From: Dolichospermum flos-aquae CCAP 1403/13F
Lineage (GTDB): Bacteria > Cyanobacteriota > Cyanobacteriia > Cyanobacteriales > Nostocaceae
Reading direction: 5' to 3'
Length of the DNA stretch: 64,000 nt
NCBI RefSeq assembly: GCF_012516395.1
Contig: NZ_CP051206.1
Location: 124,001-188,000 of the forward strand
This document shows positions 4,419 through 52,739 of the stretch, one piece after another. A program made the position numbers and the translations under genes. Below the pieces are notes generated by a model. It saw nothing but the letters and a program-made list of their open reading frames with translations. It was not told the DNA's origin and made no database searches. How positions within the stretch are numbered: the stretch's first letter is position 1; every line of letters starts with the position of its first letter.

Positions 4419-4946
4419 ACTAGTGTTAGTGTAAGTTATTTGAGAAAGAAGATCAGCTTGGATAGACCTAATTTTATGAATACAAAAAATTGCTGTCTAA
4501 GTTTGTTCAGAATGACTTTTTATAAATCTTGTAAATAGACTTCTATTACTTCTGAAGAGTAATTGTTTATACTTAGTGTTTAAAGCTAACCCTGGTTTTG
4601 GCAATTTTTATAAAACTACGGTATCTTAATCAAGTTACTGTATTATAAGCTCATAAATAATAAAATGTCTAGTACCAGTATCTATAAAGTTCTTTTAGTG
4701 AAGATCTTCTGATTTTTACCACTCCGCAGCCAATTATTTCTCTTGTCTGGGGCTTAATCATTTGATTCCATAGGTAGGGGTAAAGCAAAAGCTCATTTCG
4801 TCAAAGAGTTGATGATATTCATGACCGATTCGCAGAAAGAAATAATTATTAAGGGTTAGTAATGAGTAATAGGTAATTGGGAAGGATAAACATTAATCCT
4901 TATTCCACATCTCTTGATAGTCAAAAATTCAAAATCTAAAATCGTT
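4419..4946. other. Divergent intergenic region
   Basis: No gene is seen in these 528 bases between the divergent TauE-like and second CadD-like genes. It is AT-rich and holds one copy of the putative sulfur-regulon operator at 4617-4642. The rest shows no clear structure. Confidence 0.5.
4617..4642 (+). promoter_or_regulatory. Putative sulfur-regulon operator (TACGGTA-N12-TACTGTA)
   Basis: TACGGTA, then 12 bases (TCTTAATCAAGT), then TACTGTA. The two 7-bp arms form an imperfect dyad with 19-bp centre spacing. The same arrangement appears at 9671, 15414, 18552, 52611 and 52714, all near organosulfur genes. Here it sits between divergent TauE-like and CadD-like genes. Confidence 0.6.
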
Positions 4947-5606
4947 ATGAGTATAGTAACTGCAATTAGTACCGGAGCAATGGCTTTTAGTGCCACAAAT
5001 ATTGATGATTTAGTCATCCTGACTTTGTTTTTCTCTCAGGTGGATGCTAAGTTTCGCCGCTGGCATATTATTATTGGTCAATATCTAGGTTTTACAGCCT
5101 TGATTTTAACTAGTTTGCCTGGTTTTTTTGGGGGATTGATTTTACCCCGCCCCTGGATTGGTTTATTTGGCTTAGTTCCAATTATCATTGGTATCAAGAG
5201 TTTAATGAATCGAGAAACAGATGAATTAGAGGATGCAGAGACAGAAACAAAAGTTTCTCAGGAATCGCTAATAGCGAGATTTTTCAATTTGCAAACTTAT
5301 AGTGTTGCGGCTGTCACATTTGCCAATGGAACTGATAACATTAGTATTTATGTGCCGATATTTGCCAGCAGTAATTGGCAAAGTCTATTGGTAATTTTGG
5401 GTGTTTTCTTTTCATTGGTGGGGGTGTTGTGTTATGTAGCACATAAGTTAACTCACAATCAAGCGTTGGCTACACCCGCCGAAGGCATCGCTGATATCTT
5501 TACTAAATATGGGAATCGCTTTATGTCCTTTATCTTAATCGGATTGGGTACTTTTATCTTCCTCGACAGTCATAGTTTTAGTCTCCTCAATCTTCTGTAT
5601 AGATAA
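4947..5606 (+). CDS. CadD-family membrane protein (second paralogue)
   Basis: The protein is 219 residues from the ATG at 4947 (MSIVTAISTGAMAFSATNIDD); an upstream TTG in frame at 4914 is less convincing. It closely matches the paralogue at 2950: ATNIDDLVILTLFFSQVD, GQYLGFTALILTSLPGFFGG and FANGTDNISIYVPIF. An insertion of about nine residues (around ALATPAEGI) is encoded by a palindromic repeat at 5463-5491 that has dropped in frame into a loop before the last helix. It lies 81 bases upstream of the TauE-like gene at 5687, probably in one operon with it and the DUF1634 gene. Confidence 0.8.
   Translation: MSIVTAISTGAMAFSATNIDDLVILTLFFSQVDAKFRRWHIIIGQYLGFTALILTSLPGFFGGLILPRPWIGLFGLVPIIIGIKSLMNRETDELEDAETETKVSQESLIARFFNLQTYSVAAVTFANGTDNISIYVPIFASSNWQSLLVILGVFFSLVGVLCYVAHKLTHNQALATPAEGIADIFTKYGNRFMSFILIGLGTFIFLDSHSFSLLNLLYR
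5463..5491 (+). repeat. Palindromic dispersed repeat inserted in frame in a CadD-like gene
   Basis: GCGTTGGCTACACCCGCCG followed by AAGGCATCGC resembles the short interspersed repeats of Nostocales. It codes for ALATPAEGI, which the paralogue at 2950 lacks at the matching place. Confidence 0.65.
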
Positions 5607-5686
5607 ACGAAGTTTTCTGTTTACATCCTGCTAACAACAATTATCTAGGCATCATAAATATAGATTAAACAAAAGGGGAATTCAAA

Positions 5687-6523
5687 TTGAGCATATTAGC
5701 ATTTTCTTTACTGGTTTGGTTGGGATCATTTAGTGCCGGCTTAGTCGGAGCATTAACTGGGTTAGGTGGTGGAGTCGTCATAGTTCCGTTATTAACTTCC
5801 GTCTTTGGTGTTGATATTCGCTATGCCGTTGGAGCATCATTAGTATCAGTTATTGCGACATCATTAGGTTCAGCTTCTACATATATTAAAAAAGGCTACG
5901 CTAATCTGCGCTTGGGGATGTTTCTGGAGGTAGCCACCACCATTGGCGCTTTGATTGGCGCTCTCATTGCCACTCATGTAACCGTAAAAATACTTTCCTT
6001 GATTTTGGCAATTGTGCTAATTTATTCAGCATACTTGTCTCAACGCCCCAGACCAGAACAAACAGAAATTGCTCCACCAGATCCTTTAGCAGAATATCTC
6101 CAACTTAATGGTACTTACCCCACTCCTGATGGTGTAATCCCTTACCAAGTTCACGCTTTACCTGCTGGGTTCAGTATTATGTTAGTAGCAGGAGTGCTTT
6201 CTGGTTTGTTGGGAATTGGTTCGGGAGCATTCAAGGTATTGGCCATGGACCAAGCCATGCGTCTCCCTTTTAAAGTTTCTACGACCACCAGCAATTTTAT
6301 GATTGGTGTCACAGCCGCAGCCTCAGCAGGTGTTTATTTAACACAGGGATATATAGATCCAGGTTTATCTATGCCGGTGATGTTGGGAGTATTACCAGGT
6401 GCTTTTTTAGGAGCGAGAATTTTAATTGGTGCTAAAACCCAAATTTTAAGAATTATCTTCAGCTTTGTATTGGTAGTAATGGCGTTAAAAATGGTCTATA
6501 ACAGTCTAATAGGAGGGCTGTAA
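5687..6523 (+). CDS. TauE/SafE-family permease
   Basis: The protein has 278 residues from a TTG start preceded by AGGGGA. N-terminal half: LGSFSAGLVGALTGLGGGVVIVPLL. Second half: FSIMLVAGVLSGLLGIGSGAFKVLAMDQ. Both glycine-rich repeats are typical of TauE/SafE exporters, with about eight membrane segments. This subtype is commonly paired with a small DUF1634 protein, and that gene follows after only two bases. Transport of sulfite or a related anion is the family-level expectation. It is not an obvious recent duplicate of the TauE-like gene at 3621, since the sequences differ widely. Confidence 0.85.
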   Translation: MSILAFSLLVWLGSFSAGLVGALTGLGGGVVIVPLLTSVFGVDIRYAVGASLVSVIATSLGSASTYIKKGYANLRLGMFLEVATTIGALIGALIATHVTVKILSLILAIVLIYSAYLSQRPRPEQTEIAPPDPLAEYLQLNGTYPTPDGVIPYQVHALPAGFSIMLVAGVLSGLLGIGSGAFKVLAMDQAMRLPFKVSTTTSNFMIGVTAAASAGVYLTQGYIDPGLSMPVMLGVLPGAFLGARILIGAKTQILRIIFSFVLVVMALKMVYNSLIGGL

Positions 6524-6525
6524 TT

Positions 6526-7068
6526 ATGTATAAATTAAATTCTGGTTTTCGGTGGACTTGCACAACAGAGATAGAAAGAAAAGTTGGAAATTTCACTTTT
6601 GAATTAGAAGAGCGAGATTGTGATATTCAACAGCTAGAAGAACAGCGTCTTAAAAATCATGATCATGAAAATTTAAGTAATCAAAAACTTACAAAATCAG
6701 CAAATGAAAAACAATTAGAATATCTACTCAGTAACCTGCTAATGTATGGAGTTTTAATCGCTAGTTCTATGGTATTATTTGGGGGTATACTATATTTAAT
6801 TCATCATGGCTCTGAGCCAGCGGAATATCAAATATTTATAGGCACACCATCTGAGTTTCACTCCCCCATAGGTGTAGTAAATGCTGTTTTCGCAGGTAGC
6901 CGCCGGGGAATCATTCAATTAGGGCTGTTAATACTCATTGCTATCCCCATTTTGCGCGTAATCATTTCTTTCTGCACTTTTCTTTTACAGCGAAATTTTG
7001 TCTATGTCGTCATTACATCATTAGTGCTTGCTAGTCTAACTTATAGCCTGGTTGGCGCATATTACTAA
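6526..7068 (+). CDS. DUF1634 membrane protein
   Basis: This 180-residue protein has a charged, probably cytoplasmic N terminus (1-65). A DUF1634 region follows with three hydrophobic helices (LLMYGVLIASSMVLFGGILYL, IIQLGLLILIAIPILRVIISF and VYVVITSLVLASLTYSLVGAYY). DUF1634 proteins are regularly encoded next to TauE/SafE permeases and are thought to be partners or accessory subunits. Here the start codon follows the permease stop by two bases, so they are co-translated. The 60-residue hydrophilic N-terminal extension looks longer than usual. Confidence 0.8.
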   Translation: MYKLNSGFRWTCTTEIERKVGNFTFELEERDCDIQQLEEQRLKNHDHENLSNQKLTKSANEKQLEYLLSNLLMYGVLIASSMVLFGGILYLIHHGSEPAEYQIFIGTPSEFHSPIGVVNAVFAGSRRGIIQLGLLILIAIPILRVIISFCTFLLQRNFVYVVITSLVLASLTYSLVGAYY

Positions 7069-7077
7069 TATTTTTCA

Positions 7078-7499
7078 CAAATAGACGGTGTAGAAAATAT
7101 TGAATTTGATCAAAAAAAACAGTATTGGTTTTGGAGAAACAAATGGACAAAAAAAGGCTAGGTATTACCCTAGCCAAAAATCCACATCAACCGCAAACTA
7201 TTATTGCTATTTTCAACCAACTAGTACCCCAGGGCGGAATTAAAAATTAACAATTAAAAATTAAAAAAGCAGATTACACAAGCTTTTCAGGAATTTTTAA
7301 TGGTTGATTAACTTACGTCGCAGTGTAATAGTTACCGCTAATTAAACAATTACCATCGGTTTAAAACCATTTTATAATCCCACGAACGAAGGTATTTATC
7401 AATTTTGAGTCCAGGTTATTTCCCCTGGAGAAAATGTAAATAATTTAGTTGTGGGAACTGCTCACTTGCAATTCTCCGACAATTTTGATGATGAAATAT
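7078..7499 (+). pseudogene. Degraded DUF2808 gene
   Basis: Translated pieces match the intact DUF2808 protein encoded at 58027-58569. The first piece reads QIDGVENIEFDQKK, then after a frame change GITLAKNPHQPQTIIAIFN. A distal piece reads GLKPFYNPTNEGIYQF, an in-frame TGA, then VQVISPGENVNNLVVGTAHLQF. The N-terminal signal peptide is missing and there are several frame breaks. It is a decayed paralogue, perhaps left by a duplication between this sulfur region and the one near 58 kb. Confidence 0.8.
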
Positions 7500-7539
7500 G
7501 CAAACGATGGTAATTTTTTTGGGTTTATTAGTTGGGGTA

Positions 7540-7605
7540 AGATCCCCGACTTCTTATTTGATGATGTCAATTAAATTATTAACCAATGATAGAAGTCGGG
7601 GATCT
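7540..7605. repeat. Long-arm inverted repeat, AGATCCCCGACTTCTT family
   Basis: AGATCCCCGACTTCT at the left pairs with AGAAGTCGGGGATCT at the right, with about 35 bases between. It is one of five copies of this hairpin family in the window and can act as a bidirectional terminator or be a MITE-like element. Confidence 0.8.
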
Positions 7606-7612
7606 CCTTTTT

Positions 7613-7858
7613 TTAGCAACTTAATATTTTTTTCTTGGACATTTTTAACTGTTTCCAGAGAATACGTATTTGTTTATAAGCCTCTTCTGAGGAAAGTTTA
7701 CCACCAGTTTGTAGACCAGAAATATAGTTCACTCGTTGTGAAAAATCTTGAAGTTGGGCATTAAATTCTAAACGTTCTGAATTCAAATCTCCATAATAAG
7801 GACTACGAGGATAAAGAAAATCAGATAGTTCCGATAGCAAATCAGAGTATTGATTCAT
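7613..7858 (-). CDS. Small conserved cyanobacterial protein
   Basis: This 81-residue soluble protein has the segments FLYPRSPYYGDLNSERLEFNA and KLSSEEAYKQIRILWKQLK. I recognise this as a small cyanobacterial family (DUF7219-like) without a known function. It begins eight bases after ssuE ends, on the same strand, so it is the last gene of the sulfonate cluster. No signal peptide, membrane helix or metal-binding motif is visible. Confidence 0.65.
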   Translation of the reverse strand: MNQYSDLLSELSDFLYPRSPYYGDLNSERLEFNAQLQDFSQRVNYISGLQTGGKLSSEEAYKQIRILWKQLKMSKKKILSC

Positions 7859-7866
7859 AAATACCT

Positions 7867-8433
7867 TTAGTTACTATATGCTAATTCCTTGACATCAGGT
7901 TGGGATTTATTAACAGCTTGGATAAATTCGGTTAAAACTTCTTTGAGACGTTGATCAATTTCTTCATCCAATTGCAAACTACCATCAGCTTGAATTTGAA
8001 TTTGCTTATCTACTGCGTAAACTGTACTTAAAATATGCCTTGCACCTAATTCACCTAAAACTGGTTTTAAAGCATATTCTATTGATAATAAATGAGCGAT
8101 TGTACCACCAGTAGCTAAAGGTAATAAAACCTTACCAGTCAAAGCTTTTTGAGGTAATAAATCTAAAAAAGATTTGAGTAACCCTGTGTAAGCAGCTTTA
8201 TAAATTGGGGTGGCAATAATTACACCACTTGCTTGTTCTAATAATGCTTTTGGTTTTTCTAAAGCTGGACTATTGTAACGTCCATACACTAAATCCTCAG
8301 CAGGTAAATCTCGCACAGAAATAATATTTGTTTCTAGGCCTTGTTCAGAAAGAATTTGAGTTGCATATTCCAAAATTCCGTAGGTTCTAGAAGGATGAGA
8401 AGGACTACCCGCGATCGCTAAAATATAAGCCAT
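7867..8433 (-). CDS. ssuE: NADPH-dependent FMN reductase SsuE
   Basis: This 188-residue flavodoxin-like reductase begins MAYILAIAGSPSHPSRTYGIL, where the phosphate-binding loop GSPSHPSRT follows the first beta strand. It also has ASGVIIATPIYKAAYTGLLKSFLDLLPQ, the SsuE/MsuE flavin-binding signature. It reduces FMN with NADPH and hands FMNH2 to the monooxygenase SsuD, whose gene lies just upstream (34 bases between). Length matches the family (about 190). Confidence 0.93.
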   Translation of the reverse strand: MAYILAIAGSPSHPSRTYGILEYATQILSEQGLETNIISVRDLPAEDLVYGRYNSPALEKPKALLEQASGVIIATPIYKAAYTGLLKSFLDLLPQKALTGKVLLPLATGGTIAHLLSIEYALKPVLGELGARHILSTVYAVDKQIQIQADGSLQLDEEIDQRLKEVLTEFIQAVNKSQPDVKELAYSN

Positions 8434-8467
8434 TTGACAAAAACCTCTTGATTTAATTGATTTTTAA

Positions 8468-9637
8468 CTAATCTACAGTTGCTACTGTTGTTTCTCTAAG
8501 TTGTTCTTGAAGCTGTTGAGGAAATTCCCGGTTAGCAACAATTTCACCAAAAGGACTTAATAATTGTGGTTCTACTGTTGGTAAATTATCCAAAGGTAAA
8601 CGAGGAAAAAGCAATTCTGCTACCCGATAAGCTTCCTCTAAATGGGGATAACCAGAAAAGATAAAAGTATCAATTCCTACGTCTATATATTCCTGCATTC
8701 TTCTAGCAACAGTATCGGGATCACCTACTAATGCAGTTCCCGCACCACCCCGAACCAAACCAATTCCTGCCCACAAATTAGGGCTAATTTCTAATGCTTC
8801 CCGACTACCATTATGTAATTCCTTCATCCGCTGTTGTCCAACAGAATCCATGCGAGAATAGGCTTGTTGGGTTTTAGCGATCGCATCTTCATCTACATAA
8901 CGAATCAAATCATTAGCAGCATCCCAAGCTTGACTTTCAGTTTCTCTGACTATGACATGAAGACGAATACCAAAGCTTAACGTTCTCCCTTGTGCTTGAG
9001 CTAAACGTCTCACAGCAGCAATTTTTTCTGCCACTTGTTGAGGTGGTTCACCCCAAGTTAAATAAACATCAACGTGCTTGGCAGCAATTACTTGAGCAAT
9101 CGGAGAAGAACCACCAAACCACAAAGGTGGATGAGGTTTTTGGATATTAGGAAATAGGATTTTTCCTTCTTTAATATTGAGATAGTCACCTTCAAAATTA
9201 GAAATTTCACCGCCAGCAATTTCTCGCCAAACTGTTAAAAATTCATCAGTTAATTGATAGCGCTCATCATGACCAAGATGCAAACCATCACCAGCTAATT
9301 CAACAGGATCACCACCAGTCACGACATTAATTAATAGTCGTCCGCCAGAAATTCTATCAAAAGTTGCTGCCATTCTCGCCGCTACTCCTGGTGACATCAA
9401 CCCCGGACGGATTGCTACTAAAAACCGCATTTTTTTAGTGTGCGTTACCAAAGTTGAAGCCAAAATCCAGGCATCTTCACAAGAACGACCGGTAGGTAAT
9501 AAAGCCCCTGTAAACCCTAATTGATCAACCGCTTGGGCAATTTGTCGCCAATAATCAAAATTAACTGAACGACCACCTATAGCAGTTCCTAGATAGCGTC
9601 CATCACCATGTGTGGGAATAAACCAAAGAACTTGCAT
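8468..9637 (-). CDS. ssuD: FMNH2-dependent alkanesulfonate monooxygenase SsuD
   Basis: This 389-residue protein has a bacterial luciferase-like TIM barrel fold. It opens [17 protein letters not shown] and has [57 protein letters not shown] and [11 protein letters not shown], all SsuD hallmarks. SsuD cleaves C2 and longer alkanesulfonates to the aldehyde and sulfite using FMNH2 and O2 in the cytoplasm. Its own operator-like element is at 9671-9696, 34 bases ahead of the start, so ssuD-ssuE can be transcribed separately from ssuC. Confidence 0.95.
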
Positions 9638-9670
9638 GATATTTAAGTGTAAAATTTTTCAATCAATAAC

Positions 9671-9696
9671 TACGCTAACTCTATCGGTAAACCGTA
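9671..9696 (-). promoter_or_regulatory. Putative sulfur-regulon operator upstream of ssuD
   Basis: On the minus strand: TACGGTT, 12 bases (TACCGATAGAGT), TAGCGTA. It has the same spacing as the copies at 4617, 15414, 18552, 52611 and 52714. The core CCGATAGAGT also occurs at about 2120-2130 ahead of the Rrf2 gene. Confidence 0.6.
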
Positions 9697-9789
9697 TTAT
9701 TTGGGTAATGACTAAGAGTATTACATAAATGGATTAAGAAAACAATACTTTTACCAAAATCAACTTTAATCCTATCGGGTATTAGTAGA

Positions 9790-10635: not shown

Positions 10636-10711
10636 AATAATTTATTAAGTGATGAGGAAAATAATTATGGCGGTGTTTAGCCGCCATGCTAAGAATCAGA
10701 ATAACTACAGG

Positions 10712-11749: not shown

Positions 11750-11809
11750 AATTATGTCTCCTCACTTAATTTCAATTCAAATTGTTTTATTACTGTTTGA
11801 CTACAAAAC

Positions 11810-14330: not shown

Positions 14331-15149
14331 TTAAGCAGATACAGAATTCAATAAATAATAAGAAGACGATGATGAAGATCCAGTTTGTAGTGATTCTTGT
14401 TTACCCATAACTCTATCTAAAATTCTCTCTACGAGCTTCGCAAACTTTGCATCTCCTCTAGCCCGTGGACGGGGCAGATCAATTTTCACATTCAGACTAA
14501 TTTGACCATTTTCAATCAAAATTACTCTGTCTGCTAATACCACAGCTTCTTCCACATCATGGGTAATTAATAGTGATGTAAATCCTTGTTCCTGCCACAA
14601 ACGTTCTAATAATTGCTGCATTTCAATTCTAGTTAAAGCATCTAATGCTCCCAAAGGTTCATCTAGTAGTAATAGAGAAGGTTTACTGGCTAAGGCTCTT
14701 GCTAAAGCTACCCGTTGTCGTTGTCCACCAGAAAGGACGAAAGGCCATTCATGGGCGCGGTCTTCTAATCCTACTTCACGCAGCACTTGTAAAGCCGTTT
14801 GTTTAGCATAAACTTTGGAATTAGTACCGATTAAACCTAACTCTACATTTGCCAATACTCGTTGCCAAGGTAACAAACGAGCGTCTTGAAACATCATGCG
14901 GATAGCGGGATTAATGGGTTTATCAGAATATTTGCCATTTAACAAAACATCGCCGCCACTGGGAGCATCTAACCCAGCAACTAGACGCAACATTGTACTT
15001 TTACCGCAGCCACTGCGACCAACAATAGCCACAAATTCCCCAGGCTGAATTTCTAAATCAATTCCTTCTAAAACAGTTTTATTTCCAAAAGACTTTCTCA
15101 GTCCTTCAAGATTTAATTGCATTCCTTTTACTTTATTAGTCATGATCAA
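14331..15149 (-). CDS. ssuB: Sulfonate ABC transporter ATP-binding protein SsuB
   Basis: This 272-residue ABC ATPase has Walker A GRSGCGKS (44-51), signature [15 protein letters not shown], Walker [13 protein letters not shown] and the H-loop [11 protein letters not shown]. Similarity is to the nitrate/sulfonate/taurine class (NrtD/SsuB/TauB). It energises uptake with SsuC. A serine-rich tail follows the ATPase core. The operator-like element at 15414-15439 lies 265 bases upstream, giving a long leader if transcription begins there. Confidence 0.92.
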
Positions 15150-15662
15150 AACCTCTTAATTGTGGATGTTTGATTGGTTATTTGGAGTAAATCTGTCAAA
15201 TAAAAATAGACAATGCTTGTGTAGGATTTTTCTGAGCCGAAATCATGAGAAAATTAATATATTTATTTTCCGGCTTGAGGAAATTTTAAGATTGACAGAA
15301 ATTACTCGCTTTTATTTACTTGAATCTCTCCGGGCAGAAGGTTTTAGTAAACAAGCATCTGGCATGACTACCAATATGCTTGTTTTGCCAATCTGTTTTT
15401 CCCAGGTATAATCTACTGTAAATTGGTCGGAATACCGTAGCTTTAATCTAGTGTGGCATAACTAGATAAAAAATGCAAGTATCTTTGAGAAGAATTTTAT
15501 GAAAAATATCCATAAAAAAATCCCCACTTGTTTATGAGGATTTATTTCACAGAAAATTTGGCAATTAATATATTAATTGCTGACATCAAACAATAAGAAA
15601 AATTTATTTTTGACTATTAGTTAACAAATTTTTGCGATTTATATTCTTGTTACAAAACTTAA
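15150..15662. other. ssuB upstream region
   Basis: This 513-base AT-rich region has no convincing gene. It contains the operator-like element at 15414-15439. An open frame on the plus strand (15160-15411) has no family features and is probably chance. Confidence 0.5.
15414..15439 (-). promoter_or_regulatory. Putative sulfur-regulon operator upstream of ssuB
   Basis: On the minus strand: TACGGTA, 12 bases (TTCCGACCAATT), TACAGTA. The arms form a near-perfect dyad. It has the same geometry as the other copies and is placed ahead of the ssuB-led operon. Confidence 0.65.
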
Positions 15663-16652: not shown

Positions 16653-18365
16653 TTAAAATCTGAAGGTGGTACGTAGCCAACCCACTATACTAGCAGGATT
16701 AGTAGTATCTGAATTGGGTGCTGTCACCCAAATAAATCCAGGTGTAACTTCAATATTGTTAGTAAGTTTATATTGATACCATCCCTCAACGTGCAGAGAG
16801 GTATCTTTGTCGGCTTGACCCTTACCTGCTCCCAAATCTACATTTTTACTCAATTCAGTTAAAGTTGGGGCTCGACCGACAAAAATAGCTCCTAAGCTAC
16901 CTTTTTTCCCTAAGTCGGGAAATGTTAGTCCTGCGCCCCAGTTCAATGCTTTACCATCTCCATTTCCTAAATAACGATGGGCTGAATAGCCTACATAAGT
17001 ATTAGCTGTTAATTTGGGACTAAGTTTATACAATGCACCCAATCCGTAAAGATTTCCCACAGTTCCCGCACCAGCTACGGTACTGTTTGCTAAGTTACTA
17101 CCAGCGGCAGGTCCAAAATTGGTGCCACCTAGACCTATCGCATTTGGTGGACTGTAGGTGTTAGCGTAACTTAAGCCAACTCGGAAATTTTTCTTGGGGC
17201 TAAAGTATGTTACTTGTCCAAAGGCGACATACCTACCTGCAAATAAGCCATTATTAGCTGTGGGATTGTCACCATTAGGCGCACTGTATGATGCCCCTAA
17301 TTGCCACTGCTTGCTGAGATCATGGAGGATAGCGATTCCTGGACCTGAATCTCCATAGTTATAGACCATATTCCGTCGGGAAAATCGTGTTATCCCATTA
17401 CTGAAAGAGCCTTCAAAGGGGTTGGTTGGACCACTTAAACCAATTTCATTAGCTCCATCTGACTGAGCAAAAATGTTAAATTGTGTCTTTTTACCAATGG
17501 GAAAACGATAACGGATACCACCAACACGAATCTGATTGGGTTGAAGGCTAGGAACGCGATTATCGGCAGTTCTACCATCAAATGTTCCAAGAACCCCAGA
17601 TCTAACTTGTCCTAATGACTCAATATTTCCACCTGAGAGGACTAGTCGCAGTTGGTCTTTCCCAGTAAAACTGGTATTTAAGACTAATTGAACTGCATCT
17701 TGAAAGGTGATGGTACGAGGTGCGGGTTTTTTGGTGACAACGTTGTTACCAGCGAGGACTCCGCCCAGAACGAACTGAACTTGACCTGTGAGTTTGGTTG
17801 TTGTTGAAAATTGATTACCTTCTAATTCTGTGGTTCGTGCTTCTATTGTCTGTAATCTTCCGCGTAATACAGTAAGTTCGGTATTAAATTCTTCAGTTAG
17901 TCGTTGTATGCTTTCCAAATCTGCTTTTAGAGCTAAATCAGATGTAGATGCAGCAATAAGTTTATTGACTTGATCTAAACAAGCATTTAACCCTGCGGCA
18001 AATTCATAGCGAGTCAAGGCTCGATTACCACGATATTTAGTATCAGAACCTACTAAGCAGTTATAACGTTCTATAAGAGATTTTAAGGCCTCATAAGCCC
18101 AGTCAGAGGGTTGGACATCTGAAAGCTGGGATACAGATGTAACTTGTGATTCATCTGATAAAGAGGAAGGTTCTTTTTGGGCAATTATTTGAGTAATTTT
18201 GTTAAAGTCAGGAGTATTGATGTTGACTGGTGATAAAGTCTCTTTGTTTGTTGTTTCATTTTCTCCTCTTATTTCACTAGCAGAAGTTTTTGTACTAGCT
18301 GCTAAGACTAATAGGAATACAGACATTGGGAAAGTTAGCAATAAATTACAAGCAGTTTTTTTCAT
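16653..18365 (-). CDS. SLH-domain OprB-type outer-membrane porin
   Basis: The start is set at 18365 because MKKTACNLLLTFPMSVFLLV is a clear signal peptide; an in-frame ATG 26 codons upstream would bury it. The 570-residue protein has one SLH domain (LSDVQPSDWAYEALKSLIERYNC, with LTRYEFAAGLNACLDQV, about 85-150) and a short coiled coil (LQTIEARTTELEG). A C-terminal beta-barrel of the OprB/iron-uptake-porin type follows, ending in aromatic TTFRF. Such porins are the main cyanobacterial outer-membrane channels. With the operator-like element at 18552 and neighbouring sulfonate genes, it may serve sulfonate entry (inference). Confidence 0.88.
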   Translation of the reverse strand: MKKTACNLLLTFPMSVFLLVLAASTKTSASEIRGENETTNKETLSPVNINTPDFNKITQIIAQKEPSSLSDESQVTSVSQLSDVQPSDWAYEALKSLIERYNCLVGSDTKYRGNRALTRYEFAAGLNACLDQVNKLIAASTSDLALKADLESIQRLTEEFNTELTVLRGRLQTIEARTTELEGNQFSTTTKLTGQVQFVLGGVLAGNNVVTKKPAPRTITFQDAVQLVLNTSFTGKDQLRLVLSGGNIESLGQVRSGVLGTFDGRTADNRVPSLQPNQIRVGGIRYRFPIGKKTQFNIFAQSDGANEIGLSGPTNPFEGSFSNGITRFSRRNMVYNYGDSGPGIAILHDLSKQWQLGASYSAPNGDNPTANNGLFAGRYVAFGQVTYFSPKKNFRVGLSYANTYSPPNAIGLGGTNFGPAAGSNLANSTVAGAGTVGNLYGLGALYKLSPKLTANTYVGYSAHRYLGNGDGKALNWGAGLTFPDLGKKGSLGAIFVGRAPTLTELSKNVDLGAGKGQADKDTSLHVEGWYQYKLTNNIEVTPGFIWVTAPNSDTTNPASIVGWLRTTFRF

Positions 18366-18551
18366 TTTGATAACCTCACACACACAAAATTTAAGGCAGT
18401 ACGAAATCATCAATAATTTCGGACTTAGCATAGGAAAGATCAAGGAACTTCTCAGATAGAAATTTTCGGTAATAGGTCTACTGAGACTGGTTTTGTATTC
18501 CTAGTGACAGGAAAGCCTATAGTAGCAACTAAATTACCCTATATTAGATAA

Positions 18552-18577
18552 TCCGGTAATTTGGTCAAGTTACTGTA
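18552..18577 (+). promoter_or_regulatory. Putative sulfur-regulon operator, porin / reductase intergenic
   Basis: TCCGGTA, 12 bases (ATTTGGTCAAGT), TACTGTA. It is closely like the copy at 4617: GTCAAGTTACTGTA versus ATCAAGTTACTGTA. It lies 187 bases upstream of the porin start on the minus strand. Confidence 0.6.
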
Positions 18578-18721: not shown

Positions 18722-18747
18722 TCCGTTAAATCAGTAGATTTAGTGTA
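18722..18747 (+). promoter_or_regulatory. Weak candidate operator ahead of the aldo/keto reductase
   Basis: TCCGTTA, 12 bases (AATCAGTAGATT), TAGTGTA. Spacing fits the other copies, but both arms deviate from consensus. Confidence 0.3.
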
Positions 18748-18814
18748 GTTTGATGAAATAGTGATATTTTTAGTTTTTGTAGCAAAATGGAATCAGGAGA
18801 ATCATTTAAACATT

Positions 18815-19855
18815 ATGAAATACAATCAACTTGGTGCAAGCGACCTCAATGTTTCAGAAATTTGCTTGGGAACTATGACCTATGGGCATCAAAATACTAT
18901 TGAGGATGCACATGAGCAACTTGACTATGCTGTTACCCAAGGGATAAATTTCTTAGATGCGGCAGAAATGTATCCCGTCCCTCCTCGTGGTGAAACCCAA
19001 GGGAAAACTGAGGCTTATATTGGTGAATGGTTGAAGAAACAGCAACGAGATAAATTAATTGTAGCTACTAAGATTGCTGGTCCGGGTCGTCCTTTTTCTT
19101 GGTTGAGGGGTGGAAATAATAAAGTTGACCGTGATAATATTACACAGGCAGTAAATGATAGTTTGCAGAGATTACAAACTGATTATGTAGATTTGTATCA
19201 AATTCATTGGCCTGATCGTTATGTTCCGACATTTGGACAAACAAGTTATAATCCAGAATCAGAAAGGGAAACTGTGCCTATTGTGGAACAGTTACAGGCT
19301 TTTGCTGATGTGATTAAAGCGGGGAAGATTCGCTATTTGGGTTTAAGTAATGAAACGCCTTGGGGGGTGAGCGAGTTTGTTCGCATTGCTAATGATTTGG
19401 GATTACCTAAAGTTTTGACAACTCAAAATGCTTACAATTTATTAAATCGTAATTTTGAATCAGGTTTAGCTGAAGTTTCTCGTTATACAGGTGTGGGTTT
19501 GCTGGCCTATAGTCCGCTGGGTTTTGGGTTTTTGACTGGTAAGTATATCGAAAATCAACAATTAGAAAATACGAGAATAACTCTATTTTCAGGTTTTGGA
19601 CAACGGTATTTAAAACCCAATGTCCAAGAAGCGGTGAAGGCTTATGTGGAGGTTGCTAAAAAGTATAATCTGTCACCTGCTCAATTAGCGATCGCATTTG
19701 TTAAAAGTCGCTGGTTTGTGAAAAGCACAATTATTGGCGCAACAACTTTGGCACAATTGCAGGAAAATATAGATAGTGTCAATGTGGTTTTAGATCAAGA
19801 GATTTTCGCAGAAATAGATGCAATTCATACTCGTTATCCTAATCCAGCACCTTAA
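18815..19855 (+). CDS. Aldo/keto reductase, Tas-like
   Basis: The protein is 346 residues from the ATG at 18815 (MKYNQLGASDLNVSEICLGTMTYG). An earlier in-frame TTG or GTG would add a tail without similarity. It has the AKR barrel with AAEMYPVPPRGETQGKTEAYIGEWL (catalytic D/Y), VATKIAGPGRPFSW, VDLYQIHWPDRYVP (catalytic H) and GLSNETPWGVSEF. The MYPVPPR signature is specific to Tas-like reductases, NADPH-dependent enzymes of uncertain substrate. A weak operator-like element precedes it. Confidence 0.88.
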   Translation: MKYNQLGASDLNVSEICLGTMTYGHQNTIEDAHEQLDYAVTQGINFLDAAEMYPVPPRGETQGKTEAYIGEWLKKQQRDKLIVATKIAGPGRPFSWLRGGNNKVDRDNITQAVNDSLQRLQTDYVDLYQIHWPDRYVPTFGQTSYNPESERETVPIVEQLQAFADVIKAGKIRYLGLSNETPWGVSEFVRIANDLGLPKVLTTQNAYNLLNRNFESGLAEVSRYTGVGLLAYSPLGFGFLTGKYIENQQLENTRITLFSGFGQRYLKPNVQEAVKAYVEVAKKYNLSPAQLAIAFVKSRWFVKSTIIGATTLAQLQENIDSVNVVLDQEIFAEIDAIHTRYPNPAP

Positions 19856-20102: not shown

Positions 20103-21089
20103 ATGTTATTATCTGATTCTGTTACTATTACTGATGTAGAAGCAGCGCAAAAACGGCTTTTGGGTATTGCCCATCAAACACCAGTAATTACTTCTAATAC
20201 TTTCAATAAACTGACTAAAAGCCAAGTATTTTTTAAATGCGAAAATTTTCAACGGACAGGAGCATTTAAGTTTCGTGGCGCTTATAATGCTTTAGTTCAA
20301 CTATCAGCCCAGCAAAAAATAAAAGGCGTTATTACCTATTCTTCAGGAAATCATGGACAAGCGATCGCTTTAGCCGGAAAATTACTCAATATTCCCACAG
20401 TTGTAGTTATGCCTGATAATGCACCAATAGTCAAACAAACTGCTACTCGCGGTTATGGTGCAGAAGTCATTTTATACAGCCCTGACACAACTAACCGGGA
20501 AGAATTAACCAAAAATCTCGCAGCAGAACGCCAATTAACTTTAATTCCCCCCTATGATCATCGTCATATAATTGCTGGACAAGGTACAACTGCATTAGAA
20601 CTAATTCAGGAAGTGGGACAACTAGATTACTTATTAGTATGTTGTGGTGGTGGTGGATTAATTTCTGGTTGTGCAGTTGCGACAAAAGCGGTTTTACCTA
20701 ATTGTCAAATAATCGGTGTAGAACCCGAATTAGCCGATGATGCTACTCGTTCCTTTTATACCAAAACCCTGCAAACTGTCCACAATCCCCAGACCATTGC
20801 TGATGGTGTCAGAACTCCCAGTTTAGGTAAAATCACCTTTCCCCTTGTCCTAGAATACGTAGATGATATGGTGACTGTATCGGAAGCAGGTATAATTCGC
20901 ACCATGTTTTTTATTTGGGAACGCTTAAAAATCGTTGTTGAACCCACTGGAGTTATAGCCGCAACAGCATTATTAGAAGGTGTAGTTAAAGCGCCGGGTG
21001 CGAGAATTGGCGTAATTATCAGTGGTGGAAATGTAGATTTATTGCAAGTTAGTCAATTGAAGCAACTTAATCATCTTTTGCATTACTAG
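20103..21089 (+). CDS. Threonine/serine dehydratase-like PLP enzyme
   Basis: This 328-residue fold-type II PLP enzyme has FKCENFQRTGAFKFRGAYNAL (the Schiff-base lysine is in FKFRGA), YSSGNHGQAIALAG (PLP phosphate site SSGNHG) and the glycine loop CCGGGGLISG. There is no C-terminal ACT regulatory domain, so it resembles catabolic threonine dehydratase or serine racemase rather than biosynthetic IlvA. It would deaminate threonine or serine to the 2-oxoacid, or act on a related hydroxy-amino acid. Its place among sulfur genes is unexplained. Confidence 0.85.
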   Translation: MLLSDSVTITDVEAAQKRLLGIAHQTPVITSNTFNKLTKSQVFFKCENFQRTGAFKFRGAYNALVQLSAQQKIKGVITYSSGNHGQAIALAGKLLNIPTVVVMPDNAPIVKQTATRGYGAEVILYSPDTTNREELTKNLAAERQLTLIPPYDHRHIIAGQGTTALELIQEVGQLDYLLVCCGGGGLISGCAVATKAVLPNCQIIGVEPELADDATRSFYTKTLQTVHNPQTIADGVRTPSLGKITFPLVLEYVDDMVTVSEAGIIRTMFFIWERLKIVVEPTGVIAATALLEGVVKAPGARIGVIISGGNVDLLQVSQLKQLNHLLHY

Positions 21090-21155: not shown

Positions 21156-21180
21156 TACGGTTTTTGATAGACATACCGTA
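21156..21180 (+). promoter_or_regulatory. Operator-like dyad upstream of the methyltransferase
   Basis: TACGGTT, 11 bases (TTTGATAGACA), TACCGTA. The arms pair well, but the spacer is one base shorter than in the other copies. It lies 68 bases upstream of the start at 21248. Confidence 0.45.
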
Positions 21181-45986: not shown

Positions 45987-46426
45987 TAAAAATCAGAAAA
46001 TATAGACAAATATAAATATAACCAATTTATTTTTCTGTTGATTCTACAATAGAATCTATATTTTTGATGCCAAAAAATATAGATATTAATATATAGAACT
46101 GAACAAAATAAATCCATCATTAAAAATAAATAATTACTCTAAATTTATGAAATTTTTATAATTTTAATAAAGGAATTTATCAGATTTTGAATGAAGTTAG
46201 ATATTTTCCCATATTGATGCACTAATATAGTATTCTGTCAAGATAATTTAGATGCGTTTCCCCTGCATTGCTATCTGAACTGTATTTAGGGGTTGTGGAT
46301 AATAATTACATATTATTTATTTACCAATCCTTTGTCCATTAAGGATTTCAGTCCAAATATTTGTGTAATTAATTTTGTCTTATTACTTATTGCACCTTAT
46401 TACCTATTAATAGTTATCACCGAGAG

Positions 46427-47008
46427 CTATTCTGCTTTACCAATTTCTGTAGCTTCTGGAACTTCAATCAATTTTCCAGTTTTCACATCATAAATGTAGC
46501 CGTAAATTGGAATTTTTCGTGGTACTAATGGATGTAACCGAATACGCTTCACATCTGTATAAACACTCTGGGATAGGTCGCCAATAGTCAACCACTCAAT
46601 AAATTCAGCTTCATTTGATCCTCCTCCAGAGCCTATATCATGCCAACCCGTTTCATTTAATTGGGCTGTTTGCAGACTATTAGCCAGTAAGTTGCGGATT
46701 ATTTGGTCTGTAAAGGTTTCCATACCACAATTAGTGTGATGAATCACGAACCATTCACGAGTACCTAGTAATTTGTACGAAATTATTAAGGAGCGAATAG
46801 CATCATCACTGGCACGTCCACCAGCATTACGAATCACATGGGCATCACCTTCAGCTAATCCTGCAAAATTGGCTGGGTCAAGTCGTGCATCCATACAGGT
46901 AAGAATGGCAAACCGACGTGCAGGAGGTATGAGTAATTCGCCTTTATTACCAAAGTTTTCAGCATAACTATGGTTAGCTGATAAGACTTCTTCTAAAATT
47001 TGGCTCAT
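46427..47008 (-). CDS. Beta-class carbonic anhydrase
   Basis: This 193-residue protein has the beta-CA zinc site: C38 and the D40-R42 dyad in [10 protein letters not shown]91 and C94 in VIHHTNCGM, plus [16 protein letters not shown]. It interconverts CO2 and bicarbonate. Length is typical of short bacterial types. A TACGGTA half-operator lies just upstream (about 47020-47026), so sulfur-linked control is possible but weakly supported. Confidence 0.93.
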
Positions 47009-47135
47009 GTTTATTAATTAATTTACGGTAAACCGATAAATTTTATGGAGTTACAAATAGTAATGTCCCATAAATTAACCTAAAAGACAAGTCTGCTCAG
47101 TGCTATTTGTGGCGGGGGTTGCCCGCCTTTGATAC

Positions 47136-48941: not shown

Positions 48942-49039
48942 GAGATTCTCTAAATAGCTAAAAAGTGAAATATTGGCTAGGTAATTGAGGGACTGCTAGT
49001 ACCGCTTTCCCAAAGTTAAACGTTTGGTAAGCAAATTTT

Positions 49040-49085
49040 TGTTTTCATCCTGTTAATCCCTTAATCTTGGACATCCTGATTCAGA
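49040..49085. repeat. AGGATTT-family dispersed repeat
   Basis: Reads TTCATCCTGTTAATCCCTTA with TTGGACATCCTGATTC following, the complement of the unit at 16552-16597. Non-coding. Confidence 0.7.
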
Positions 49086-49091
49086 CAGTAA

Positions 49092-50135
49092 TTATTTCAG
49101 TCGTTTAGGTGTAATAGCTTCAGTTAATTGAGGTGAAGGAGTTGCGTCCTTGACATTTATCTTGCGGGGAATGATTTTTTCTTCAAAATAAAAATCAGCA
49201 ACTTTCTGTTGTTCAGCAATAATTGCAGGTGTCAGTCTTCTTAACCGACGAGTAGTTCGACGAGATACTTTTTCTAAAACGTCTACATCAATTTTCAACT
49301 CAGGTGCAAAAGCTTGAGCGACTTCTTTTGGGTTTTTATCAGCCCATTCTCCAACTTTATCTGCTTCTTCTAAAAATACTCTTACCAATTCAGAATTTTT
49401 GGTGATAAACTCCTTTCTACCCAGATAAAATCCGCCGAGAGTATTAATCCCTGAAGCATTTCTGAGATTACGAATAGGGATGGTTTTTTCGACAAGAGCT
49501 AAAAAGGGATCACCACCTACCCAAACTTCAACTTTATTTTGAATAAAAGCATCACGAGCTTCAGATGGAGTTAGTCCCACAACTTGAATATCACTAATCT
49601 TTAAACCTACTTCTGTTAAGGCTTTTGCTAATAAGTAGTGGGCATTTGATCCCCGTTGAAAAGCAACTTTTTTACCCTTAATATCCGCTAATTTTCTAAT
49701 AGGAGAATTGGCTCTGACAATAATACCTTGTCCTAATCCTTTACTGGGTACACGCCCAGAAATATAAATCACTTCTGTGACACCAGCAGCTTGGGAAAAT
49801 ATTGGTGGTGTTTCTCCCACTGTACCAATATCAACTTTACCTGCATTCATGGCTTCTATTAGTTGTGGACCTGCTGGAAATGGTCCAACCCAATTCACAG
49901 TTACACCTAATTCTTTAAAACGTGGCTCAACAACTTTTTTGACTTTGACAATATCCCCAGAGGTTTGATAAGCCAAGTTGATAACTTTAGAACTAAATCC
50001 AGATTTTGTCTGGGCTTGGCTTGTTTGTAATAAACTACCTGTCAAGGGTGTAGATAGAGTAAACAATCCTAGTAGTGAATATTGAACAAATCGGTTTAAA
50101 ACTGTGCGGCGTTGTGGTAAAAATGGTATTTTCAT
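49092..50135 (-). CDS. Sulfonate ABC transporter substrate-binding protein (third)
   Basis: This 347-residue periplasmic protein has a signal segment (QRRTVLNRFVQYSLLGLFTLSTPL). It is closely similar along its length to the one at 10712: INLAYQTSGDIVKVKKVV, FPAGPQLIEAMNAGKVDIGTVGETPPIFSQAAG and SPIRKLADIKGKKVAFQRGSNAHYLLAKAL. No permease or ATPase adjoins it, so it probably uses SsuBC encoded elsewhere. A weak operator-like dyad lies at 50194-50219. Confidence 0.9.
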   Translation of the reverse strand: MKIPFLPQRRTVLNRFVQYSLLGLFTLSTPLTGSLLQTSQAQTKSGFSSKVINLAYQTSGDIVKVKKVVEPRFKELGVTVNWVGPFPAGPQLIEAMNAGKVDIGTVGETPPIFSQAAGVTEVIYISGRVPSKGLGQGIIVRANSPIRKLADIKGKKVAFQRGSNAHYLLAKALTEVGLKISDIQVVGLTPSEARDAFIQNKVEVWVGGDPFLALVEKTIPIRNLRNASGINTLGGFYLGRKEFITKNSELVRVFLEEADKVGEWADKNPKEVAQAFAPELKIDVDVLEKVSRRTTRRLRRLTPAIIAEQQKVADFYFEEKIIPRKINVKDATPSPQLTEAITPKRLK

Positions 50136-50193
50136 GGCTGAAATATTTAGAGTTTACAAAATTGATAATTTTTATTCTGCTGAAGCAAAAACT

Positions 50194-50219
50194 CTCGTAT
50201 TTCTATCGGAATTACGTAT
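50194..50219 (-). promoter_or_regulatory. Weak candidate operator upstream of the third binding protein
   Basis: On the minus strand: ATACGTA, 12 bases (ATTCCGATAGAA), ATACGAG. The core CCGATAGA matches the ssuD copy, while the arms are poor. It lies 59 bases upstream of the start at 50135. Confidence 0.3.
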
Positions 50220-50341
50220 TTACATATTATCTTTACACAAAAAATCTGAAAATCAAGTATTTTCCAACACATTTATTATTTTTCTCAAGATTTATTTGAA
50301 GTATTTAGGTAATATAGTAATTCTAAATTTTATGAACAAAA

Positions 50342-50374
50342 AGATCCCCGACTTCTCTAAGAAGTCAGGGATCT
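50342..50374. repeat. AGATCCCCGACTTCTCT hairpin repeat
   Basis: Compact 33-bp hairpin, with arm AGATCCCCGACTTCT against AGAAGTCAGGGATCT (one mismatch). Same family as 7540, 37744, 56301 and 59904. Confidence 0.8.
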
Positions 50375-50492
50375 GAATTTGAATGAAATAGGCTATACGC
50401 AAAAAATCACCAAAGTAGGGATAATTCATAAATTACCTCTACACACATAATAATCACGGCTTCGATAACATCATTTGTAAGTTCTATGCTGA

Positions 50493-51806
50493 CTAAGAAA
50501 TTAATCCCATTTCTTGATATATGGGGTTTACCACCGTTCTAATTTCTGAGATTTGCCTAGCAAAAAAACAAGCTCCCAAAATACAACAAACACCACCAAA
50601 TAATAAGGCATTAGCAACGCCAATATAATTTGCTAATCCTCCAAAAAATAAATTACCAAAAGGTAGTATTCCCAAAAAAGTAGTCATAAATATACTGGTT
50701 ACTCGTCCTCTTTTATCTTCTTCCACTAGAATTACTTGCACAAAATTACTAATTGAAGCTAGAGTTAAGGTATTAGTTAATCCGACAATAAAGATTAATA
50801 CTAAACAAATTTCTAGTCGTGTTGAGCGAGAAAATAATATTAATGATAATCCTAGCACTAAAGTAGAAATTGCCATAACTTTTTCCAGTCCTATTGCTTG
50901 TTTACGCCTCATTAAATAAATACCAGAAAAGATAGAGCCAAAAGCTGTGGAAGTCATCAAAAAACCCATTGTTTCTGCATTACCTTTTAATACTTCTTTG
51001 GCAAATATCGGCATCAAATTAACATAAGTCATTGCCATAAAGCAAACTGTAATTTGCAAGATTAAAATGAACTTAATTGGTATGAAGTTGTATACAAAAA
51101 CAAATCCTTCTTTAAGGTTATGCCAAATCTTTTTAGAGTTAGAGCTAGATTTTGATAAGCTATAGATATTTGGTTTAATTTGCATAGTCAAAATAGCGAA
51201 CAAAAAAGGTAAGTAGCTAATAGCATCTACTAAAAAACATAACCATGCTCCATTTTTAGCAATTATCAAACCCCCAATCATCGGACTGACAAATTTAGCT
51301 GTATTAATTAAAAATGAATGTACAGCCATTGCACTATAAGTATCACTTCTATTTTCTACTAATCTAGGAATAGTTACTTGACGTGCTGGTAAATCAAAAG
51401 CTTTGACTATGCCTTGAAGAATACCAATGATAATAATATCTGTAAAATTTATCTGATTACTAACAGTTAAAAAAGTTAGTAGTGAGGATAAAATAATAGA
51501 TACTATCTGAGTGGTTAACAAAACATATTTTAAATTCCATCTATCTAGTAATACTCCTACCAATGGTGTAATAACCAAGCCCATTGCTTGATTAGTGAAG
51601 CCTGCAACGCCAACTAACATAGCTGAATTTGTTAATTGATAAACCATCCATACTAGGGCAATTTGTGTCATCCAAGAGCCGAAAAAAGACACGCTTTCCC
51701 CAATGAGAAAACCAAATAAATTGGGTGATTTAATTGCAGGTGAGATTTTCAAAAAAGCAAATATTTTGTTGCTTTTCTTTAATGATGTGCTATTTTCTTC
51801 TAACAT
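50493..51806 (-). CDS. MFS transporter (multidrug/siderophore exporter type)
   Basis: This 437-residue protein has about 12 predicted helices. The MFS_3-type start is LFGFLIGESVSFFGSWMTQIALVWMVYQLT, with LVGVLLDRWNLKYVLLTTQ (the D-R loop motif) and VEEDKRGRVTSIFM. It is like EntS-type exporters. It is 28 bases upstream of the SDR gene on the same strand. Substrate unknown. Confidence 0.85.
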   Translation of the reverse strand: MLEENSTSLKKSNKIFAFLKISPAIKSPNLFGFLIGESVSFFGSWMTQIALVWMVYQLTNSAMLVGVAGFTNQAMGLVITPLVGVLLDRWNLKYVLLTTQIVSIILSSLLTFLTVSNQINFTDIIIIGILQGIVKAFDLPARQVTIPRLVENRSDTYSAMAVHSFLINTAKFVSPMIGGLIIAKNGAWLCFLVDAISYLPFLFAILTMQIKPNIYSLSKSSSNSKKIWHNLKEGFVFVYNFIPIKFILILQITVCFMAMTYVNLMPIFAKEVLKGNAETMGFLMTSTAFGSIFSGIYLMRRKQAIGLEKVMAISTLVLGLSLILFSRSTRLEICLVLIFIVGLTNTLTLASISNFVQVILVEEDKRGRVTSIFMTTFLGILPFGNLFFGGLANYIGVANALLFGGVCCILGACFFARQISEIRTVVNPIYQEMGLIS

Positions 51807-51834
51807 TAATATTATCTATTTTCAGGTATAGTCA

Positions 51835-52584
51835 TTACCGATCTTGCTGAGTTGGACGAATCAAGATTTCATTCACATTTACGTGCTGTGGTTGGGTAAC
51901 AGCATAAACTATTGCTGCTGCGATATCTTCACTTTGTAATGGTGTAATTGCTTTCCGTCTGGCTGCAATTTCCTGCTTTGCTACTACATCGGTAATATGC
52001 TGATCAATTTCTGTTTCTACTAAACCAGGCTCGATGATAGTAACGCGGATATTATCTTGATATACTTCCTGTCTTAATGCTTCCGAAAAGGCATTTACAC
52101 CCCATTTAGTGACATTGTAAGCCGCCATTCCTGCACGGGCAATGCGTCCAGCGACAGATGAAATATTAACGATATGTCCTGATTTTTGCGCTTTAAAAAT
52201 AGGTAAAACTGTGTGAGTTGCGTACATTAACGCCAAAACATTAATATCAATCATTTTCCGCCAGTTTGACGGATCTGCATTTTCAATCCTACCTGGAAAT
52301 GATATACCTGCATTGTTAACTAAAATATCTACGCGCCCAAATTCTGCATGAGCTTTTTGGATCAGATTTTTAACCTGTACTTCATTGGTAATATCTGCAA
52401 CAACAGGTAATACTTGTCCACCATTTTCAGTAATATGTTTTGCTACTGCTTCTAAACGCTCTCCCCTTCTAGCTGCAATTATTACTTTTGCTCCTTCTGC
52501 TGCGAGTGAAATAGCCGTAGCTTCCCCAATTCCCGAAGAAGCCCCGGTAACAATGGCGACTTTTCCTTCTAATTTACTTGCCAT
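51835..52584 (-). CDS. Short-chain dehydrogenase/reductase
   Basis: The start is set at 52584 (MASKLEGKVAIVTGAS) because AAGGG lies nine bases ahead. A longer frame to 52680 would read through the operator-like element at 52611-52636, so it is rejected. The 249-residue protein has TGASSGIG, NNAGIS, the active-site S...YNVTK triad (SSVAGRIARAGMAAYNVTKWG) and EPGLVETEI. It is an NADP(H)-type SDR of unknown substrate, divergent from the binding-protein gene at 52797. Confidence 0.88.
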   Translation of the reverse strand: MASKLEGKVAIVTGASSGIGEATAISLAAEGAKVIIAARRGERLEAVAKHITENGGQVLPVVADITNEVQVKNLIQKAHAEFGRVDILVNNAGISFPGRIENADPSNWRKMIDINVLALMYATHTVLPIFKAQKSGHIVNISSVAGRIARAGMAAYNVTKWGVNAFSEALRQEVYQDNIRVTIIEPGLVETEIDQHITDVVAKQEIAARRKAITPLQSEDIAAAIVYAVTQPQHVNVNEILIRPTQQDR

Positions 52585-52610
52585 AGCGAACATCCCTTGA
52601 TTAGTTAAAA

Positions 52611-52636
52611 TACGGTATCTTGATACAAATACTGTT
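52611..52636 (+). promoter_or_regulatory. Putative sulfur-regulon operator upstream of the SDR
   Basis: TACGGTA, 12 bases (TCTTGATACAAA), TACTGTT. It lies 27 bases ahead of the SDR start on the minus strand, with the geometry of the other copies. Confidence 0.6.
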
Positions 52637-52713
52637 GATTCAAAATCAAGCATCTCACAGATCACTAGAAAAAGCAACAAAAATAACCTCTATGTGATAC
52701 TCTAAGAAAAAAA

Positions 52714-52739
52714 TACGGTAAACTGATTGATATACTGTA
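52714..52739 (+). promoter_or_regulatory. Putative sulfur-regulon operator upstream of the fourth binding protein
   Basis: TACGGTA, 12 bases (AACTGATTGATA), TACTGTA. It lies 57 bases upstream of the start at 52797. With the copy at 52611, two elements sit back to back in one divergent promoter region. Confidence 0.65.

Follow-up and report, generated by a model that had tools for sequence, protein, structure and literature searches.

A 64,000-nucleotide stretch of the Dolichospermum flos-aquae CCAP 1403/13F genome (5.22 Mb) was analyzed here, and this stretch, C1:124001-188000 on contig NZ_CP051206.1 (C1), is called the window. It carries repeated copies of a 26-bp dyad in front of genes for sulfur uptake and use, and judged from the sequence this dyad is near certainly the operator of a sulfur regulon. 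We consider it probable that the regulon is a cyanobacterial sulfur-starvation regulon kept closed by a CymR-like repressor of the Rrf2 family, with CysK (O-acetylserine thiol-lyase) as the sensor, and that it is released on sulfur shortage. The candidate repressor is encoded in the window itself (2215-2697, forward strand; Pfam Rrf2, 2.2e-33). Positions without a prefix are those of the window, and G and L numbers are our handles for genomes and loci.

The preliminary description of this DNA had listed six 26-bp sites, and all six were recovered at the same positions with identical letters. They are found at 4617-4642 (30.8 bits), between the divergent TauE-like (3621-4418, reverse strand) and CadD-like (4914-5606, forward strand) genes; at 9671-9696 (27.6 bits), centered 46 bp 5' of a gene that NCBIfam identifies as ssuD (8468-9637, reverse strand); at 15414-15439 (30.4 bits), centered 277 bp 5' of the called start of an ssuB-like ATPase gene (14331-15149, reverse strand); at 18552-18577 (28.6 bits), between the OprB porin (16653-18443, reverse strand) and aldo-keto reductase (18761-19855, forward strand) genes; at 52611-52636 (22.9 bits), at the start of an SDR gene (51835-52680, reverse strand as called); and at 52714-52739 (29.4 bits), between the SDR gene and an SsuA-family binding-protein gene (52758-53885, forward strand). 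The site at 52611-52636 falls within the called SDR open reading frame (ORF), the start codon of which is uncertain. The weaker copies fared unevenly. The one at 18722-18747, a second operator 27 bp ahead of the aldo-keto reductase gene, is a good site by the matrix (17.1 bits). The copy at 21156-21180, 5' of the methyltransferase-like gene 21248, is indeed a 25-mer with an 11-base spacer, and it looks like a full site shortened by 1 bp because the orthologous promoter of a relative (G137) holds the 26-bp form (24.4 bits). The copy placed at 50194 found no support, as its best register (50193) scores 5.5 bits and null sequences yield 7.7 matches above 6 bits per 124 kb.

Several sites were added to that list, namely 2199-2224, 47024-47049, and 47005-47030, plus six to the right of the window. 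The first of these (16.8 bits) sits at the start of the Rrf2 gene and is read as autoregulatory. The other two form an overlapping pair with one arm in common (47005-47049), 5' of a carbonic-anhydrase-like gene (46427-47008, reverse strand), the scores being 12.6 bits for 47005-47030 and 17.0 bits for 47024-47049; they are offset by 19 bp, and it is possible that two dimers bind side by side. Two further elements had been pointed out ahead of the regulator genes, a half-site at 2018-2024 before the Crp-family gene and the core CCGATAGAGT at 2120 before the Rrf2 gene. Both are degenerate in the window, and both match better-scoring sites in relatives. The Crp promoter copy (1999-2024) scores 6.8 bits, and the distal Rrf2-promoter copy containing CCGATAGAGT (2110-2136) looks like a high-scoring site of relatives expanded by 1 bp.

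With at most one mismatch allowed, five matches to TACNGTA-N12-TACNGTA were counted in the window, where 100 third-order Markov sequences predict 0.13, and at this threshold a spacer of 12 gives the top count among all spacers from 0 to 30. With a symmetric matrix trained on 11 sites, 15 sites above 14 bits were found in the 124 kb of C1:104001-228000, where the nulls had a mean of 0.15 and a maximum of 2, and 12 sites exceeded 20 bits, a score reached by none in 40 nulls. Eleven of these 15 are the training sites themselves; the other four are 2199, 18722, and 47024 of the window and C1:202649. In a stretch that is 82% coding, 14 of the 15 site midpoints fall outside called ORFs. The matrix-supported sites cluster between C1:126 and 212 kb, an island of about 86 kb of organosulfur genes that extends past the window. 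When 68 non-redundant sites from many genomes were compared, the motif information reached ±17, past the 26 bp used for finding sites, with mostly A at ±15 to 17 and C or A at ±14, flanks that were absent from training. We therefore draw the operator at about 34 bp, AAA-M-TACGGTAANTYGA followed by TCRANTTACCGTA-K-TTT. The arms within a site showed no covariation past the consensus (8.0 of 13 matches vs 8.3 in re-paired halves). Genome-wide, the bare arm pattern is non-specific, a reversed-pattern control giving 213 matches per strand at two mismatches vs 123, and it is the matrix rather than this pattern that separates true sites. A dispersed repeat or a chance dyad devoid of any regulatory role would have the repetition itself in its favor and nothing further, and it is at odds with the Markov-null counts, the intergenic placement, the conserved flanks, and the conservation of sites in orthologous promoters of other genera and families. 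We rejected this explanation, which is refuted as far as sequence allows, and give it practically no weight.

The island targets in the window are the TauE-like, CadD-like, ssuD, ssuB-like, OprB porin, aldo-keto reductase, SDR, SsuA-type binding protein, and carbonic-anhydrase-like genes, and those to the right of it are TauD-like, CmcJ-type oxidoreductase, rhodanese, MBL-fold, and luciferase-like monooxygenase genes, with one site (C1:192890) lacking a clear gene. A model search of the organism's own genome at E up to 10, with scoring applied to the best 150 of 4504 first-look candidates, returned 17 distinct places, the 11 training sites and six held-out ones. The latter are a TauE gene outside the island (C1:1143120), a divergent pair of sulfate-binding-protein genes (C1:3079426; above the TIGR00971 cut-off), a GST gene (C1:5063435), the Rrf2 start, an MBL-fold/unknown pair, and the carbonic-anhydrase-like gene. 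The preliminary description had named a genome-wide scan beforehand as the check that could refute it. Outside the island, nine matches to the arm pattern with at most one mismatch were found, and the two that exceed 18 bits by the matrix both front sulfur genes, one being the site of the sulfate-binding-protein pair and the other, uncovered by the pattern search, lying ahead of a gene for a CysA-like sulfate-transport ATPase (C1:1890871, 18.8 bits; above the TIGR00968 cut-off). The remaining seven score at most 14.4 bits, and five of these lie inside ORFs.

Targets of the same kind were observed in other cyanobacteria. We chose 22 genomes of the same family for lacking an island-type Rrf2 (15 of them already known to hold a motif row), and 19 of the 22 have a model match at E up to 0.5. 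The best site of these 19 lies at a sulfate-binding-protein gene in 12; in three it is at ssuD, an SsuA-like gene, and TauE; in two it is between a CadD-like gene and a gene for a 311-residue protein; and in two it has no assigned gene. Outside the family, sites are found 32-36 bp ahead of sbpA-like genes in G149, G168, G199, G179, and G202, and the CysA-like genes of G173 and G184 also carry sites. Operators of 30 bits front FGE-sulfatase-type (sulfatase-modifying factor) genes in G095 and G076 (L078 and L079, 3001-3026), which suggests that the use of sulfate esters may fall under the same operator in these two genomes. The earlier claim of a sulfur-regulon operator is thus strongly upheld: the sites are enriched and intergenic, they have further targets outside the island, and they are conserved in other families of cyanobacteria. 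As a separate observation, the two loci of genus g5 (L116 and L118, 1501-1526) have a full operator between the CadD-like gene and the gene of the 311-residue protein, which in L116 is a LysR protein with some similarity to CysB-type models; the layout in L118 is alike, and the regulon may thus contain a further regulator.

One regulator, either the Rrf2-like or the Crp-like protein, had been proposed to act on these sites. Our results favor the former, and sequence comparison makes Rrf2 the likely operator binder. A site above 10 bits is present at the Rrf2 gene in 29 of 30 island-type loci, compared with 13 of 325 control windows taken from those loci, controls that include other real sites. 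The same holds for 67 of 80 loci drawn from named records, chosen as the best 80 among 191 relatives, where the closest named relative of the island Rrf2 is that of Dolichospermum sp. LEGE 00240 (94% identical). Among 145 genomes of the family, at least five motif rows, each strand being counted separately, were found in 48 of the 85 with an island-type Rrf2 (E below about 3e-49, a set that includes G063, whose copy has stops) vs 5 of the 60 without (Fisher 8.6e-10). The sets of 30, 80, and 145 overlap and share descent, and their counts are not independent events. Some Rrf2 match exists in all 145 genomes; in G013 and G082 it is only a distant one, and both have zero motif rows. The best sbpA-promoter site scores 10.0 bits in G013 and 5.8 in G082 vs 27.7 in G043, of the same genus as G082, the low G082 score being weakened as evidence by a genome that is 88% complete. 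Outside the family, where a CymR-like Rrf2 is present, 8 of 21 sbpA genes carry a site above 18 bits and 10 of 15 genomes give a model match at E up to 0.5; where it is absent, the counts are 0 of 5 genes and 1 of 6 genomes.

Another widespread cyanobacterial regulator, for example of the LysR/CysB type, could bind the operator and have Rrf2 merely as one of its targets. LysR proteins govern sulfur genes in other bacteria (PMC2940859), the site of L116 lies ahead of such a gene, with a like layout in L118, and the co-occurrence tests above are correlative. However, the operator co-varies with a CymR-like Rrf2 both inside and outside the family, sites are present at most of the Rrf2 genes examined, and a 34-bp palindrome suits the wide footprint of an Rrf2 protein. 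We regard a LysR-type binder as unlikely.

The Crp/Fnr-family gene (1399-1986, reverse strand; Pfam Crp) is best read as a member of the regulon. In the 80-locus set, 52 loci hold the gene, and in 45 of them its promoter has a site scoring above 10 bits. When the gene lies on a different contig from Rrf2, a site was still found in three of the four genomes examined (G126, G114, and G055), and the gene carries a site outside the family too (G197, G168, and G179). Because the Crp gene has sites when unlinked to Rrf2 and in other families, both regulator genes look like targets of the operator. In the opposite arrangement, the Crp protein would bind the operator and activate the regulon, and Rrf2 would be a bystander target. 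The Crp gene is divergent beside Rrf2, its promoter has the motif in relatives, and a match is present in 141 of the 145 family genomes. Its recognition helix resembles that of NtcA, and CysR of Synechococcus is a Crp-family protein as well. CysR, going by the title cited in PMC8049743, is tied to sulfur-regulated plasmid genes of Synechococcus, and is in this respect alike as a regulator linked to sulfur-regulated genes in a cyanobacterium; it differs in that the Crp gene here looks like a target and not the binder of this operator. Three of the four family genomes that lack a Crp match nevertheless retain sites (G027, G099, and G024), one of them, a 33-bit site in G099, being located between two sulfate-binding-protein genes. 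The form of the sites also disagrees with a Crp binder, as GTA-N8-TAC, the NtcA-type site, was found in 0 of the 68 operators and usual Crp sites are narrower than this motif. Crp as the operator binder was thus disfavored, and we consider it very unlikely.

The Rrf2 protein of the window (P0001) resembles CymR, the partner of CysK in Bacillus subtilis and Staphylococcus aureus, in its Rrf2 fold without the iron-sulfur (Fe-S) cysteine triad, its sulfur and cysteine targets, its proposed CysK partner, and its C-terminal tail. Its alignment reaches the last position of the NCBIfam CymR model, it has one cysteine, as expected for the CymR class without a cluster, and its regulon, judged by operator position only, is one of sulfur acquisition. 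Unlike in Bacillus and Staphylococcus, rrf2 and cysK genes are neighbors here, rrf2 occurs as two paralogues, and the targets are sulfonate, taurine, and sulfate transport plus the Crp gene. The AlphaFold model (mean pLDDT 81) has the Rrf2 winged-helix fold, with tail residues 158-160 at low confidence and probably flexible. Thermincola IscR and CymR (2y75) are among the nearest structures in the one PDB library searched (TMt about 0.8). The Thermincola potens Rrf2 (PDB 4cic, called IscR) is the best PDB match in both sequence and structure and its chain likewise ends in MYYI; it differs in being annotated as an Fe-S regulator. The Fe-S regulators IscR, NsrR, and RsrR share the fold and have wide operators, with 29-bp and 23-bp fragments in structures (PMC9338935), but the single cysteine of P0001 leaves no three-cysteine cluster, and P0001 scores 72 bits against the IscR equivalog cut-off of 207.55.

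The neighborhood of cysK genes points to a candidate partner. An Rrf2 paralogue encoded at C1:1456186-1456626, 48% identical to the island Rrf2, lies 17 bp upstream of cysK, and cysK stands beside the paralogue-type Rrf2 in 17 of 17 loci examined (at least 71% identical to the paralogue). This paralogue may bind the same sites as the island Rrf2. The island type shows the same pairing, with cysK following Rrf2 in 25 of 30 loci and lying within 400 bp downstream in 67 of 80, its start most often 19 bases past the Rrf2 stop in the 80-locus set. In the window, a CadD-like transporter gene (2920-3597) follows the island Rrf2 in the place where 25 of 30 relatives' loci carry cysK, so that this strain seems to have lost its cysK copy there or had it replaced. 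A PALP gene at 20103 was considered as the cysK partner and dropped, NCBIfam making it a threo-3-hydroxyaspartate ammonia-lyase / serine-threonine dehydratase. The tail -MYYI closes all 80 island-type Rrf2 proteins, and 32 of 33 aligned Rrf2 proteins, the exception being a third, IscR-like Rrf2. CysK partners usually end in a C-terminal isoleucine, as stated in PMC4961446, and according to PMC12895370 this residue supplies most of the CysK-binding energy of CysE; from CysE and CdiA, by analogy, we infer that CymR itself would dock its tail in CysK. In B. subtilis, CymR and CysK are described as a regulatory complex in which CysK senses the cysteine pool via O-acetylserine (PMC2940859). By this analogy, together with the gene pairing and the tail, CysK is a plausible O-acetylserine sensor here.

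Rrf2 could also bind the operator with no need of CysK, the signal then being a direct ligand or thiol oxidation. The lack of an adjoining cysK at the island Rrf2 of the window would fit this, CymR of Staphylococcus reacts when a cysteine on its surface is oxidized (PMC9338935), and at least 90% of the 33 aligned Rrf2 sequences retain one cysteine, C145. The fact that the -MYYI tail is found in 80 of 80 relatives, as well as the cysK pairing of both paralogues, argues against a CysK-free signal, which we hold to be rather unlikely.

We favor a model where a homodimer of the CymR-like Rrf2 (the island copy, and very likely also the paralogue near cysK) would bind the ~34-bp palindrome and block transcription of its own gene, of the Crp-type regulator gene, and of the genes by which sulfonate, taurine, and sulfate are taken up and used. 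If sulfur is sufficient, then the C-terminal -MYYI of Rrf2 would dock in the active site of CysK and stabilize DNA binding, making CysK both sensor and co-repressor. Once sulfide is exhausted, O-acetylserine would build up and compete for the CysK site, and the regulon would open. The island Rrf2 of this genome has no cysK following it and therefore would need the CysK of the paralogue's locus. A block of transcription is proposed because many sites sit close before the start codon: of the 121 unique sites scoring above 18 bits, 109 lie within 400 bp of a gene start, and 56 of the 109 are centered at most 60 bp before that start (7 of these 56 just past the called start). What the sequence itself shows is the operator with its conservation and its targets, the presence of sites at Rrf2 genes, the pairing of Rrf2 with cysK, and the conservation of the tail; Rrf2 binding, repression over activation, CysK contact, and O-acetylserine sensing are inferred.

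Several observations weigh against this model. A -10 box lies beside the site in 5 of 57 cases vs 3 of 57 in the control, leaving distance as the argument for repression. The protein of the window scores 92 bits against the 195-bit cut-off of NF047409, the NCBIfam CymR equivalog and its best-scoring one, and for that reason it is CymR-like and not filed as CymR. Of the 80 Rrf2 loci, 13 lack a site above 10 bits, and in 18 of the 85 genomes with an island-type Rrf2 a search at E up to 0.05 gives no motif row, where stricter filters drop weak matches. G062, from the genus of G013, has a CymR-like Rrf2 and yet an sbpA site of just 4.1 bits; 13 of the 21 sbpA genes in genomes with a CymR-like Rrf2 have a site of at most 14 bits; and G205, where a CymR-like Rrf2 is absent, still shows three weak motif rows. 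In G137, no site of the Crp gene exceeds 10.0 bits in the 7 kb examined, and no gene begins within 500 bp of the 15.8-bit site at C1:901217. As to CysK, no cysK follows the island Rrf2 of the window, the paralogue's Rrf2-cysK locus is itself without a site (the best score in 17 loci being 7.0 bits), and the paralogue is widespread, not universal, at least G013 and G079 of 14 family genomes lacking a close match.

One further feature of the island was observed at 23805-45986. Two direct copies of a DDE transposase element, with identical 300-base stretches 20.7-20.9 kb apart and the ORF of the second copy split, enclose CRISPR-Cas genes (Csc2, Cas6, Cas1, and a helicase with a Cas3-like part), presumably type I-D-like, and a YhcG-type nuclease gene. 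The arrangement resembles the insertion of a composite element into the organosulfur island.

In Synechocystis, sulfur starvation induces sbpA-cysTWA, and PMC2491639 describes it as yet to be determined whether one mechanism serves both repression and activation; according to a 2021 paper, much about the interplay of the known parts of the sulfur pathway is still unknown (PMC8049743). In the open-access literature, with subscription papers and regulon databases outside the scope of the search, we found no earlier report of a CymR-like sulfur regulon in cyanobacteria. This work supplies a defined 34-bp operator, a target list, a candidate repressor that occurs as two paralogues, and CysK as the candidate sensor. 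We give even chances to the wider proposal that the CymR-like Rrf2 and CysK form the main switch for sulfur status in much of the cyanobacteria, acting widely on sbpA and cysA, with an autoregulated second copy, beside its own cysK, serving the large organosulfur islands of Nostocales. Sulfate is often limiting in fresh water (PMC8049743), where many Nostocales live. If the proposal is true, an O-acetylserine-sensing pair of CysK and regulator would be common to Firmicutes and cyanobacteria.

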